Shown here one piece after another: positions 13,514-19,074 of a stretch of 64,000 nucleotides of DNA (position 1 is the first letter of the stretch; each line of letters opens with the position of its first letter). The stretch comes from Sulfodiicoccus acidiphilus. GTDB lineage: Archaea; Thermoproteota; Thermoprotei_A; Sulfolobales; Sulfolobaceae. The stretch covers positions 2,281,982 through 2,345,981 of the forward strand of contig NZ_AP018553.1 in assembly GCF_003967175.1 (NCBI RefSeq), written 5' to 3'. The translations under genes were made by a program, and so were the position numbers. The notes beneath the pieces were generated by a model. The model searched no databases. It had not been told where the DNA came from and saw only the letters and a list, made by a program, of their open reading frames with translations.

Positions 13514-15250
13514 TTATATTATATTATAATTATTATGATATAAAATCAAGTAGCCCGAGGTGTTTGTGGTGCTATTCTGTAGACCAATGGCGAGGAATGA
13601 TTGTTTATATCCCTGTCCGTTAAGTAGGTTCAGTGCAGTCAGAGCCTTGGTTGTCATGGCGTTATTTGAGGTGAGAGAAACTAATACGGCCCCACCGTAC
13701 TGGTTTATCACCTCTAGTACACCAGAGAAGCCCCCTACTACGCTCTCGTTCTCTTTCATAGATACGGTGAAGTTGTATCCATCGATGACATACTGACTGA
13801 AGTAGCTAAGGGAGAGATCTATACTCCCGTTCTGTAGGTACGAGACGTTGAAGGGAATTGCAGTTGGCGAAGTTATAGGGGTAGAGAAGGCAACGAAGTC
13901 CATCCTTATGGGGTACGAGATTGCGTAGTTCAAGCTAGCATTGATGATACCTCTATTAGAGGAGACCTCGTGGAAGGACTCATCGAGCTCGGCGTATTGG
14001 AAGTAATTGTTGAACTGTTGAAACGCCTGAAAACTTCCCCACTGTCTCACGAAACTAGTTTCTTCCCCGTGCAAGAACCTGAGTATTGCTCCATACTCGA
14101 TCACATAGTGCCCGTCCTCTTGATAGTATGTTCCTGAGAAGCTCCCTTGAAATATGGGAGCCGAGTCCATGAAGCTGGAACCATACTTAGTCAGTTTAGC
14201 GCTGATCATGGGATTTGAGGGGTTGTTCCAAAGCAGCAGCACGCCGGCGAGGTCCCAATCGAAGGCGTTAGAACCGCTTAGGCTACTGGCCTCCCTCAGG
14301 TTGGTCACACTCACTGAAAGGGTGGGATGGAGGCTTAACGCTAGGAGCGGTGTGAGTTCAATGAAGTAGCTGGAATGGAAGGACAGGGTGTTTATAGATG
14401 TTACGGGCCTCCAAGCGAACAGGTCGATCCCCCCGGTGTAGATGGTCTCAAAAGGGTTAAGAACGCCAGCTATAAGGGAGTCATACCTAACTACAATGCT
14501 CCTTGTGGCTGGCTCGTTGGTGTACCAGAACTCGTCTAGTCCTCCTCCTTCTTCGTAGAGAAGGAGGAGGTCCCTGTAAGTGCCGTTGGGAATGGTGATG
14601 TTTTGAGAGTAGGAGGGACGAGAGGGATTCAGAACGACGTAGGAGTAGTTCATGCTGTTCACAAAGAGTGGAATGAAATCGTTTGGAAGTCCTTCCGGCT
14701 TAGCTCCGGGATAAAGGTAAAGGGTAGCGTTGACTTCGTATATACCAGTAATATTAATTGACTTGTCTATATAGTTTGGGATCACGATCTGGAAGGTAAC
14801 GTTCCCCTTCAGTAGGTTCTCGAAGAGTGTCAGGTCGGCCTCAGCAGTGGAGTTCAATATCTCTTGAGTTGAACCCCAGAACACTGGTACTCCGTTCGCG
14901 AAGACGTAGGCTGCTCTATCGAACTGGGCCCCGTCGGTCTCCCTCACTGAGACGTTAAGCAAAACCATCGAGTAGTTTCCAGCCGGAATGTGCACCTTCC
15001 TTATAATAGGGGCCAATCCTGTGTTAGTCACTGCGGCGTTCCTGGCTATTACCACCTCGATGGGAGTAACGTTAGGAGGATGCAGCCCGTAAGCTTCGAA
15101 GGAGTAGTACATAGGGTCGTAACGGAGGACACTGGAAGAGGCTGTGACGTTGAAGAAGAGCCGCGGAGTGTAGGAATGAGAAAAGGACGCAGGAACAGCG
15201 GGGGCTGCAGTTAAAACTACGAAGATCAATAGTACGAGCCACCTCATCAT
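13514..15250 (-). CDS. Exported PNGase-A-like glycoamidase
   Basis: A secreted 578-residue protein with a signal peptide (MRWLVLLIFVVLTAAPAVPA). It resembles peptide-N4-(N-acetyl-beta-glucosaminyl)asparagine amidase A, which releases N-glycans from glycoproteins. The clearest mark is the DEFWYTNEP segment at about residues 236-244, preceded by a YRDLLLLYEE strand and followed by ETIYTGGIDLFAWRP. Many NxS/T sites suggest it is itself glycosylated. The ATG overlaps the stop of the upstream S53 protease (ATGA), so the two form one operon. The plausible joint job is breaking down extracellular glycoproteins. The activity is inferred from fold marks only. Confidence 0.75.
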   Translation of the reverse strand: MMRWLVLLIFVVLTAAPAVPASFSHSYTPRLFFNVTASSSVLRYDPMYYSFEAYGLHPPNVTPIEVVIARNAAVTNTGLAPIIRKVHIPAGNYSMVLLNVSVRETDGAQFDRAAYVFANGVPVFWGSTQEILNSTAEADLTLFENLLKGNVTFQIVIPNYIDKSINITGIYEVNATLYLYPGAKPEGLPNDFIPLFVNSMNYSYVVLNPSRPSYSQNITIPNGTYRDLLLLYEEGGGLDEFWYTNEPATRSIVVRYDSLIAGVLNPFETIYTGGIDLFAWRPVTSINTLSFHSSYFIELTPLLALSLHPTLSVSVTNLREASSLSGSNAFDWDLAGVLLLWNNPSNPMISAKLTKYGSSFMDSAPIFQGSFSGTYYQEDGHYVIEYGAILRFLHGEETSFVRQWGSFQAFQQFNNYFQYAELDESFHEVSSNRGIINASLNYAISYPIRMDFVAFSTPITSPTAIPFNVSYLQNGSIDLSLSYFSQYVIDGYNFTVSMKENESVVGGFSGVLEVINQYGGAVLVSLTSNNAMTTKALTALNLLNGQGYKQSFLAIGLQNSTTNTSGYLILYHNNYNII

Positions 15251-18200
15251 TCCCGCCTCCTCAAGGTGGAGACAGAGGCCACGATCAATCCCACTACTGC
15301 CAGCACTAACGTTAAGTAAAGGAGAGCGTCTGTGAACCCTATCTTCGAGCTTAGATCGGAGAGACCACCGAAGATGGAACTTATCTGCACAGCAGTACGG
15401 ACTTGATGGAACGAGTTGAACAGGGTGAAGTTGAGGTAGTACTGGACACCGTTCGAGGCCACAACCTGAAGGATGTACTCCCCGTCGGGTTCGATCGTTG
15501 CGTTAAAGGGCACAGTGAGCTGAACTCCATCGGCTCGCCTAGAAGCCTCAAATGGGATTGGAACCCCATCTAGCATTACAGAGAGGACCCTGACTTGAGG
15601 ACCAAGAACACTGAAGTTGACGTAAGATGTGGGAGAGGTCAGATTAAACTCAGCCGGCCTTATTGTCGGAGGAGGCAGAGTAGATAGATTCGAAACGTGG
15701 ACGAAAGAAGTTCCATGCTCTTGGATCTCGCTGTTGCTTTGATTGAAGGCGTAAGATAGGTTAGAGAGGGTGGAGGAATAAAGTTGGACTGTGGAGTTTA
15801 GTGCAGTTATTCCGACCTCAGAATTGGATATCTTGGAGTCGAACATCAACAACTCGGACCCGATCAGTTTCACGGAGGAGAGCAAAGAGGAGACTACAGT
15901 GACGGTGGAGTTACGTGCCTCTAACTTCCCGACAACTACGTCGTTCAGGGTTACGTTGATACCGTTCACATCTAGAGACGGTATGTAAACGTCACTCATG
16001 GAGATGCCGCCAGTTAACGGGTAAGCTAGAGGTACGTTGCTCTCGTTGAGGGAGGAAATAGTTTGTGGTCCTATGTAGGTGTAAGGCATGACGTTGAACT
16101 CTTCTCCTGGTGTCACTAGGTTTGCCCCCAACGGTGTGGAACCTGAGATTACCACCTGCCACACTCCCGACAGCGAGGAAACGGACAATCCTTGATACGG
16201 ACCCTCATTGAGAATGGAGGGAATGACATACTCCCCATTCCATAGCTTTGTAGTGCTATTGTACTGTAACGGTACCTCCACTTCTCCGCTAATTAGTGGG
16301 GTTTCATAGCTCAGCTCCCTAGGCAACAGGATGGCAGAGAAAGTACCGTACTGGACAGGCGTTCCATTGGAGTAAGTGATGGAGACTCTCACGTCGATGG
16401 TCTCTCCTTCATAGACTAGGGGGTCAACGTGGACTTGATAGTTGAGGGCCTCTGTGGAGACGTAGAATGAGAGGTTGTAGAGCCCTAGCAGTTCACCTGT
16501 AGAGGTATTGGCCTCTGCCACGAACTCCACTGTGTAGAACCCAGGTGTAAAGTTACCCGGCACAGTGAAGTTGGCCTCGTGGTATCCAAAGAGATTGAAG
16601 ACTCCGAATTGGGTTACGTCGGGAGCAAGGAACATGGGAACCGCTGCTACTAACTTTCCTGAGGAAGAATAGAAGTACGCAGTGATATTAGAAGTGAACA
16701 AACCTAATCCGCTAGGTTGGTATGCCGCAGCAAGCAAGGTGATAGTCTCTCCAGGGGACGCAGAAGCCATCGCTCCGTTCACTGGTGTGAGAATGTAAGC
16801 CAGCATTTGAAGTCCGAAGTAAACGTAGGTGTACGCCCCACCGAGGGAATTATTAACGAAGAACAAGTAGGAACCCTGTGGGTCCGTAGAGGGCAGTAAC
16901 CCTTCTCCTTCATACAATCCCTGGCCTATCGGTAGGAGAGTCACGTTCAACACAGTTCTTCCTTGTCTAACTAAATGCGCAATTAGAGTGGAGTTATCGA
17001 TCGGAGTCCCGTTTGGGTACATCTCGTAGGCTACGACTTGGAAAGGTTGGTTCACTTCGAGAGGAGGTCCGTAAGGGTAGGGAACCGGATATACAATTGT
17101 AACGCCAGCACCTACTTCTACGTACTGTATTCCAGAGCCACTTAGATTATTGTAGGTTCCGTTGACCGTCAACCTCCACATGCCAGGAGAGGCGTTGAGA
17201 GGAATCGTGAATGAGGAAGTCCACTCCAGGTCAGTTGAGTTGAACAGTAGTGGAACCCTCAGGGTGTAGCCACGACCGTCAGAGAAGTAGGCCTGGAAGT
17301 GACCGGAGGTGACGGGGGTGCCGTCGTAGGTGACGTAGGCCGTCACCTGTACGGCCGAGCCCTGGAGGTACCAAGGAGTGCCGTCGGTGGAGACGGAGAT
17401 GGAGAGCCCGGGCCTGAGGGAGGAGAGGAGGGAGAGGAGGAGGCCGCCGTCAGGTGTGCCCAGGCCGGTGGTGCCTGGCCCCGGGCCGTAGAGGCCGTTG
17501 AAGCCGAAGGTGACGTTGTGGAGGGCACCCCTGACGAGGGGGAGCACCCCGTTCAGGTCCCCGAGTGGGCCGAGCCTGGAGTCCAGGTCCGCCACCACCC
17601 CGGCCCAGGTGGGGGCGGCCAGGCTGGTCCCGCCGACGGCGAGGAGCTGTCCCTCCGCCACCACAGCGAGGCCGGTGTAGGGGTCGGCGTCGGCCGAGAC
17701 GGTGGGAACGGTCACCCCGGGGAAGAGGGTGGACGGGCCTCCTCCAGTGGAGACGTCCTGCCCGTAGAGCGGGTCCACGCTCCAGGCCGTCTCGTAGCCG
17801 TAGGTGGCGGTGCTGTTGAGGGCCCACAGGTAGCCGGACGTGACGTTCACGTAGAGCGCGGTCCCTCCCACGGAGGTGACGAAGGGGGAGGAGGCGGGGA
17901 AGAGGGCACCCCCGTAGGCCACCGGGGTTCCCCCAGTTGCCCCCTCGTCCCCGGAGGCAGCTAGGAAGGTGATCCCTTCGGCGGAGCCCAGGGCGAAGTA
18001 GAAGTTGGCGTAGGGGTAGTTCAAGGTGTAGGATGGAAACGTGGTATAAAATCCTGTCATTCCGAACAAGTTCTCTGGAATTCCCCAACTCATGGACACT
18101 ACGTCGGCTAGATCAGCGCTCACCACGTAATCTATTGCCTGATAAAGGGCATTGCCGGCGTTGGAAGCAACCACCACGTCTATGTGTGCGTAAGGCGCCA

Positions 18201-19074
18201 TGGAATGCACTGCCTCTACGTCTAGAGCGGTCTCAACGTCCCAACCAAAGATGTAGCCTAAAACTGGGTGATAAGGCCCTATGGGGATGACAGTTATGTT
18301 GGTTGGAGGGAGGTGGAACCTCTGATCGAAGGCCTGTACATCTTGAAGAAGTAAGGGATCTCCATACGCATCTATCACAGCGACTGTTACATTACGTTCA
18401 GTTGGAGATATGATGGGAGTAACGTTATAAGCACCTTGCAGATCTTGTGGCGTGTAAACGTCAGCGGCTATCGGGAAGGCTAGCGGCATCGAGTTGGGTA
18501 AGTCAACCCTCGAGATCAACCCTTTCTGAATTTTGCCCAACACGATTAACTGAGGTCTTATCTCGCTGTAGTTATCTAGTCCTACTATTATCGTTCCCTG
18601 AAGGGGGCCTGGAACCTGAGGTGGAGATGAAGGTGCGTAGTACAACTCACCTGCTCTATCATATAACTCTAATCTTGTCTGGAATAGGCTCTCCACTACT
18701 CGCGCTGGGGCCTCGACCATTAGGGAGAACCGGTCAGGACTCTGGTAAACTACAGTGAAGCCGTTAGCCTCCAAGTAGTTCAGAATCGAACTGAACATGG
18801 AGGCAGGTGGAGAGAACTCCTTGAGGACCTGAGAACGATTCAGCGGTGGGGCCTGCTTCTGAGACACTTCCTGAGCGTAAATGAGAAGTAGGGAGTAATG
18901 CCTAGGTGGAATAAAGATAGATAAAGTTACCGGAACGTCCAGCGGTAGGGAAGCTGTCACGTTTCCACTCAGCTCTGGACCCACGTATTGTGCCACAACG
19001 ATGTTGGGTATCCATGGGTAAGACATGGAAAGAAGAAAGAGAACAAATATGACCAAACCCGCTTCTCGTTTCAT
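15247..19074 (-). CDS. Membrane-anchored S53 (sedolisin/kumamolisin) serine protease
   Basis: A 1275-residue exported acid protease. The order is a signal peptide (2-28), a pro-kumamolisin activation domain at about 55-165 (YSLLLIYAQEVSQ...FSLMVEAPARVVESLF), a catalytic domain with E281 and D285 (DVETALDVEAVH), a SMSWG oxyanion segment, and the nucleophile S484 in GGTSLAAPTWAG. Ig-like repeats cover about 560-1020, a beta-helix-like stretch (SSLLSSVKLIGSELLMF) lies near 1075, and one C-terminal transmembrane helix is followed by RRR. It is probably held on the outer face of the cell membrane with the PNGase-A-like product of the overlapping downstream gene. Codons for about 355-595 are far richer in G+C than the rest. 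Confidence 0.9.
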   Translation of the reverse strand: MKREAGLVIFVLFLLSMSYPWIPNIVVAQYVGPELSGNVTASLPLDVPVTLSIFIPPRHYSLLLIYAQEVSQKQAPPLNRSQVLKEFSPPASMFSSILNYLEANGFTVVYQSPDRFSLMVEAPARVVESLFQTRLELYDRAGELYYAPSSPPQVPGPLQGTIIVGLDNYSEIRPQLIVLGKIQKGLISRVDLPNSMPLAFPIAADVYTPQDLQGAYNVTPIISPTERNVTVAVIDAYGDPLLLQDVQAFDQRFHLPPTNITVIPIGPYHPVLGYIFGWDVETALDVEAVHSMAPYAHIDVVVASNAGNALYQAIDYVVSADLADVVSMSWGIPENLFGMTGFYTTFPSYTLNYPYANFYFALGSAEGITFLAASGDEGATGGTPVAYGGALFPASSPFVTSVGGTALYVNVTSGYLWALNSTATYGYETAWSVDPLYGQDVSTGGGPSTLFPGVTVPTVSADADPYTGLAVVAEGQLLAVGGTSLAAPTWAGVVADLDSRLGPLGDLNGVLPLVRGALHNVTFGFNGLYGPGPGTTGLGTPDGGLLLSLLSSLRPGLSISVSTDGTPWYLQGSAVQVTAYVTYDGTPVTSGHFQAYFSDGRGYTLRVPLLFNSTDLEWTSSFTIPLNASPGMWRLTVNGTYNNLSGSGIQYVEVGAGVTIVYPVPYPYGPPLEVNQPFQVVAYEMYPNGTPIDNSTLIAHLVRQGRTVLNVTLLPIGQGLYEGEGLLPSTDPQGSYLFFVNNSLGGAYTYVYFGLQMLAYILTPVNGAMASASPGETITLLAAAYQPSGLGLFTSNITAYFYSSSGKLVAAVPMFLAPDVTQFGVFNLFGYHEANFTVPGNFTPGFYTVEFVAEANTSTGELLGLYNLSFYVSTEALNYQVHVDPLVYEGETIDVRVSITYSNGTPVQYGTFSAILLPRELSYETPLISGEVEVPLQYNSTTKLWNGEYVIPSILNEGPYQGLSVSSLSGVWQVVISGSTPLGANLVTPGEEFNVMPYTYIGPQTISSLNESNVPLAYPLTGGISMSDVYIPSLDVNGINVTLNDVVVGKLEARNSTVTVVSSLLSSVKLIGSELLMFDSKISNSEVGITALNSTVQLYSSTLSNLSYAFNQSNSEIQEHGTSFVHVSNLSTLPPPTIRPAEFNLTSPTSYVNFSVLGPQVRVLSVMLDGVPIPFEASRRADGVQLTVPFNATIEPDGEYILQVVASNGVQYYLNFTLFNSFHQVRTAVQISSIFGGLSDLSSKIGFTDALLYLTLVLAVVGLIVASVSTLRRRE

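Follow-up and report, generated by a model that had tools for sequence, protein, structure and literature searches.

Two adjacent minus-strand genes of the heat- and acid-loving archaeon Sulfodiicoccus acidiphilus, one for an S53 protease with a predicted surface anchor and one for a predicted exported protein of the PNGase A family, form a pair that we found in the same order in all 31 Sulfolobaceae genomes. We explain the pair best as a translationally coupled unit whose products probably work together at the cell surface to dismantle N-glycosylated proteins in hot acid. We hold this joint reading with modest confidence, as what we infer are both activities at acid pH, a substrate common to the two proteins, which of them acts first, and their physical association. 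Neither enzyme is of a new family; what appears to be new is their fixed pairing across Sulfolobaceae. Our search of the open-access literature found no paper on an archaeal PNGase A or its pairing with S53, and none on how archaea remove N-glycans. Sulfolobus surface proteins carry eukaryote-like N-glycans linked through chitobiose, and a coupled, single-copy PNGase is a concrete candidate for their removal, within reach of experiments in genetically tractable species. The pair could also provide heat- and acid-stable glycan-releasing enzymes.

Gene junction and conservation of the pair

In the window (the whole stretch of 64,000 nucleotides analysed), both open reading frames lie on the minus strand. 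The gene for the S53 pro-protease, of the kumamolisin/sedolisin type, spans 15247–19074 and encodes 1275 residues; the gene for the PF12222 protein, here called PNGase, spans 13514–15250 and encodes 578 residues. As the earlier note had claimed, stop and start overlap in an ATGA (15247–15250, minus strand), with the S53 stop TGA at 15249–15247 and the PNGase start ATG at 15250–15248. A Shine-Dalgarno-like GAGGAGG (15256–15262, minus strand) stands 5 nt ahead of the PNGase start, within the coding end of the S53 gene, and a similar purine-rich stretch also precedes PNGase in the orthologs.

The PNGase profile matched all 31 Sulfolobaceae genomes, each with a single copy, and in every one an S53 gene lay directly upstream on the same strand. 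The two genes overlapped or abutted throughout (junction offsets of –10 to +9 nt), and at 21 of the 31 junctions PNGase could start 3 nt ahead of the final base of the stop codon, as it does in the window (offset –3). The genes flanking the pair fell into several unrelated clusters that differed by genus. This indicates that the pair, and not the region, is what is conserved, and that the pairing is not chance, because order, strand and tight junction are kept in all 31 genomes while the flanks differ. The earlier note had taken adjacency in relatives as its test; rare adjacency is refuted, and the conservation of the pair is stronger than a reader of the sequence alone could know. The Sulfolobaceae loci showed no peptide-transporter genes next to the pair, which counts against the joint reading. 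In a tree, the paired S53 proteins formed one clade, separate from other S53 paralogs. Two more proteins joined this clade: L003, a duplicate in the S. acidiphilus genome with 57% identity, and L057, an S53 relative in the Acidilobus-like genome G046 that lies away from PNGase.

Predicted protease and PNGase

The S53 protein begins with a Pro-kumamolisin activation domain (PF09286; E = 1.1e-16; residues 43–163, 18586–18948, minus strand) and matched kumamolisin 1t1e with E = 3e-24. Alignment to 1t1e/1t1g placed the catalytic domain at about residues 205–550 (17425–18462, minus strand), with E281, D285 and S484 on the kumamolisin Glu-Asp-Ser set and D376 on the oxyanion Asp. All four residues were conserved across the S53 orthologs of the pairs, and the S53 identity first read from the letters alone thus holds on both activation domain and catalytic residues. 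At the kumamolisin calcium site, compared here for its side-chain ligands, the Asp ligands are replaced by Asn520 and a short deletion in the window protein, and are replaced in nearly all orthologs too. This site is common in S53 enzymes, not defining.

The window protease differs from kumamolisin and sedolisin, with which it shares the activation domain, the Glu-Asp-Ser set and the oxyanion Asp, in its long beta-domain tail and membrane anchor. An AlphaFold2 model of the tail from residue 559 (mdf75bcbbe7a7; mean pLDDT 86.2) consisted of beta-sandwiches, a beta-helix-like stretch and a C-terminal helix, in an arrangement that is uncertain at a pTM of 0.55. The macroglobulin/Ig-like sandwiches and the beta-helix-like stretch that follows them, at about residues 1023–1133, together span 15676–17400 (minus strand). 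Foldseek found resemblance to tandem Ig/macroglobulin domains with low whole-model TM-scores, so we read the tail simply as tandem domains of this general type; Pfam gave a weak MG2 match in the C-terminal region. By hydropathy, the chain closes with a strongly hydrophobic segment at about residues 1245–1272 (15259–15342, minus strand), followed by basic residues. The same ending closes the paired orthologs, which bears out the C-terminal anchor claimed before. No NCBIfam family was found for the S53 protein or for PNGase.

PNGase matched PF12222 with E = 3.9e-30 and 105.2 bits, against a curated cut-off of 25.3. Its sole sequence relative in the PDB was PNGase Bb (9vla), at 17–20% identity. 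We built an AlphaFold2 model with 30 archaeal sequences (mean pLDDT 85.4), which superimposed on 9vla, a complex with the MUXF glycopeptide, with Z = 34.1 over 477 residues (rmsd 2.7), and on PNGase F (1pnf) with Z = 18.6 over 260 residues. Other solved PNGases scored Z = 17–18 and unrelated entries at most 10. By its scores against 9vla and 1pnf, the model has the double-domain PNGase fold. Two motif residues, Asp111 in Q-Y/F-D-R (14918–14920, minus strand) and Glu240 in DEFW (14531–14533, minus strand), were invariant in 30 of 30 archaeal sequences and kept in 9vla; they are the putative catalytic residues. Of the 21 bacterial relatives that we retrieved, from acid-soil groups such as Acidobacteria, Rhodanobacter and Dyella, 20 had the motifs as well, as QYDR or QFDR and as DEFWY (EEFWY in one case). 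No PNGase relative was found in a phage collection. Profile, fold and motif residues together uphold the PNGase-A-like identity proposed in the earlier note. The window protein is like the PNGase A/PNGase H+ group, PNGase Bb included, in profile, whole-chain fold, motifs and export, and unlike it in being archaeal, thermoacidophilic and protease-coupled, at its low identity to 9vla and with a putative activity, the release of N-glycans from Asn (EC 3.5.1.52).

The first jelly-roll of PNGase also resembled carbohydrate-binding modules in structure comparison. This fits a different role, in which the PF12222 protein would no longer act as an amidase but, as a subunit that binds glycans, would bring the protease to glycoproteins. 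We regard this role as very improbable, as Asp111 and Glu240 stay invariant over the 30 diverse archaeal sequences, as do Arg250 and Trp280, and enzymes also carry the Asp and Glu motifs.

PNGase has one N-terminal hydrophobic stretch and no second. Export of both products, as claimed previously, is borne out by the export signals predicted in their sequences. Both proteins are also rich in N-glycosylation sequons, with 35 in the S53 protein compared to 10.0 in shuffles and 18 in PNGase compared to 7.3. PNGase would thus work among glycoproteins that probably include the protease paired with it, a point against the joint reading. The many sequons of the S53 protein, together with the strict one-to-one coupling of the genes, are consistent with a closed maturation pair, in which PNGase acts mainly on the protease, or the protease on PNGase, to control activation with no wider substrate. 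This is improbable in our view: PNGase relatives exist where S53 is absent or not adjacent, and the S53 duplicate L003 has no PNGase of its own in a genome with one PNGase.

Proposed substrates and order of action

Many sites of the Sulfolobus S-layer protein bear N-glycans linked through chitobiose (PMC2948927), and Sulfolobus N-glycans are released by PNGase F (PMC12042106), so that a bond of the right kind is available for PNGase. PNGase H+, a characterised relative in the PNGase A group, has a pH optimum of 2.6 (PMC4231336). Together with the PNGase fold and the invariant motif residues, these facts lend indirect support to the glycoprotein-degrading unit of the earlier note. In that note, loss of the glycans comes first and opens proteins to the protease, an order that is unsupported as stated. 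Plant PNGase A is reportedly inefficient on intact glycoproteins (PMC4231336). This property favours the protease acting first and PNGase second, an order that we rate as no less likely than the reverse.

In the surface unit that we propose, the S53 protein would be exported, fold with its pro-domain and be anchored through its C-terminal helix, with the catalytic head held outward on the stack of beta domains. PNGase, which lacks an anchor, would be exported and remain at the surface or in the medium. The protease would cut unfolded or foreign glycoproteins into glycopeptides, its targets being shed S-layer, dead cells and possibly damaged surface proteins of the cell itself. PNGase would then cleave the GlcNAc-Asn bond, which would make the peptides digestible and importable and let the glycans be recycled. 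In eukaryotes, cytosolic PNGase (NGLY1) acts with the proteasome. The likeness is one of concept, glycan removal coupled to protein destruction; NGLY1 and the proteasome are unrelated to the window enzymes and, unlike them, intracellular and ATP-dependent.

The pair could instead be directed at the cell itself, trimming, maturing or removing its own S-layer and other N-glycosylated surface proteins in quality control, division or growth, and not in feeding. We consider such self-maintenance rather unlikely, though it has several points in its favour. PNGase is kept as a single copy in all 31 Sulfolobaceae genomes, one of 1.5 Mb included; the STABLE protease is known on tetrabrachion, an archaeal surface-layer stalk (PMC5744192); a subtilase, a stalk protein and PNGase lie in a row in one Desulfurococcales genome (see below); and the thermopsin-like secondary stalk of Sulfolobus islandicus indicates that surface proteases can have structural roles (PMC6712394). 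However, folded glycoproteins should withstand enzymes of the PNGase A type (PMC4231336), and the neighbours of the pair are not conserved between genera, so there is no positional tie to S-layer genes.

PNGase outside Sulfolobaceae and the S53 paralog

Across the whole order, PNGase was present in 55 of 214 genomes. The S53–PNGase pair also occurred in an Acidilobus-like genome (G037), in two Caldisphaera genomes (G054 and G081), in Marsarchaeota (L125) and in Thermoprotei CPBay (L129), where PNGase is split between two frames. No S53 gene adjoined PNGase in families f5 and f10, in Aeropyrum-like and other f6 genomes or in Vulcanisaeta-like genomes, and the archaeal S53 model found none next to bacterial PNGases. 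In two further Acidilobus-like genomes (G046 and G062), an S53 relative was located elsewhere, away from PNGase. In bacteria and in Aeropyrum-like, Thermogladius, Staphylothermus and Vulcanisaeta-like genomes, PNGase also occurs with no protease as its neighbour. These cases count against the joint reading, as they indicate that the partnership is not needed everywhere.

A different protease accompanied PNGase in the Desulfurococcales genome EvPrim.Bin15 (G036, family f5). At locus L116 (1225–9387), three genes follow one another on one strand: one for an S8 subtilase (1374 residues), one for a protein of 1261 residues with a coiled coil and a membrane helix at its end, and PNGase. The arrangement was seen only in L116/L131, both of this genome; in genome G004, the same stalk end stands ahead of PNGase at a contig edge. 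The row suggests, from one complete example, an independent link between a protease and PNGase. It resembles tetrabrachion/STABLE of Staphylothermus marinus, in which, as predicted for the window S53 protein too, the archaeal surface carries a protease. STABLE is of the subtilase family and sits on a separate coiled-coil stalk, whereas the window protease is an S53 enzyme with its own stalk and anchor and falls outside that type. The S53–PNGase pair would add a further case of proteases carried on surface stalks in archaea.

These loci raise the tentative possibility, which we put at clearly less than even, that several archaeal lineages repeatedly placed a PNGase-A-type amidase beside a surface protease suited to their pH, making a general extracellular system that deglycosylates and degrades. 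The protease would be S53 in the acidophilic Sulfolobaceae and Caldisphaera, and an S8 subtilase with its stalk in the Desulfurococcales genome. If true, this would be an archaeal counterpart, outside the cell, of eukaryotic PNGase and proteasome.

Oligopeptide ABC-transporter genes adjoined PNGase in three lineages (L066, 4159–9659; L069, 4508–7327; L129, 650–5228), which speaks for the joint reading. We rejected an Opp-type transporter beside PNGase as a general link to peptide uptake, since it was confined to L066, L069/L072 and L129. In Vulcanisaeta-like genomes, PNGase was split over two frames or left as a C-terminal remnant (L130, 9839–11646; L183, 8625–9068; G533:C1:256619–256972), which suggests that these genes are decaying; PNGase was intact in a sibling genome (L173).

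The S53 gene of the window shares a tract (17269–18024, minus strand) with its paralog about 140 kb away (G000:C1 2157140–2157860; L003/L162). Over these 252 codons of the catalytic domain, 746 of 756 nt were identical, compared to about 45–75% identity over most of the two genes outside the tract. The tract has a GC content of 71%, and its third-position GC was 0.90 compared to 0.51–0.60 in the flanks; the corresponding values in the sister genome G171 were 0.73 and 0.44. Judged by this base composition and near-identity, the tract looks like the product of GC-biased gene conversion in an archaeon.
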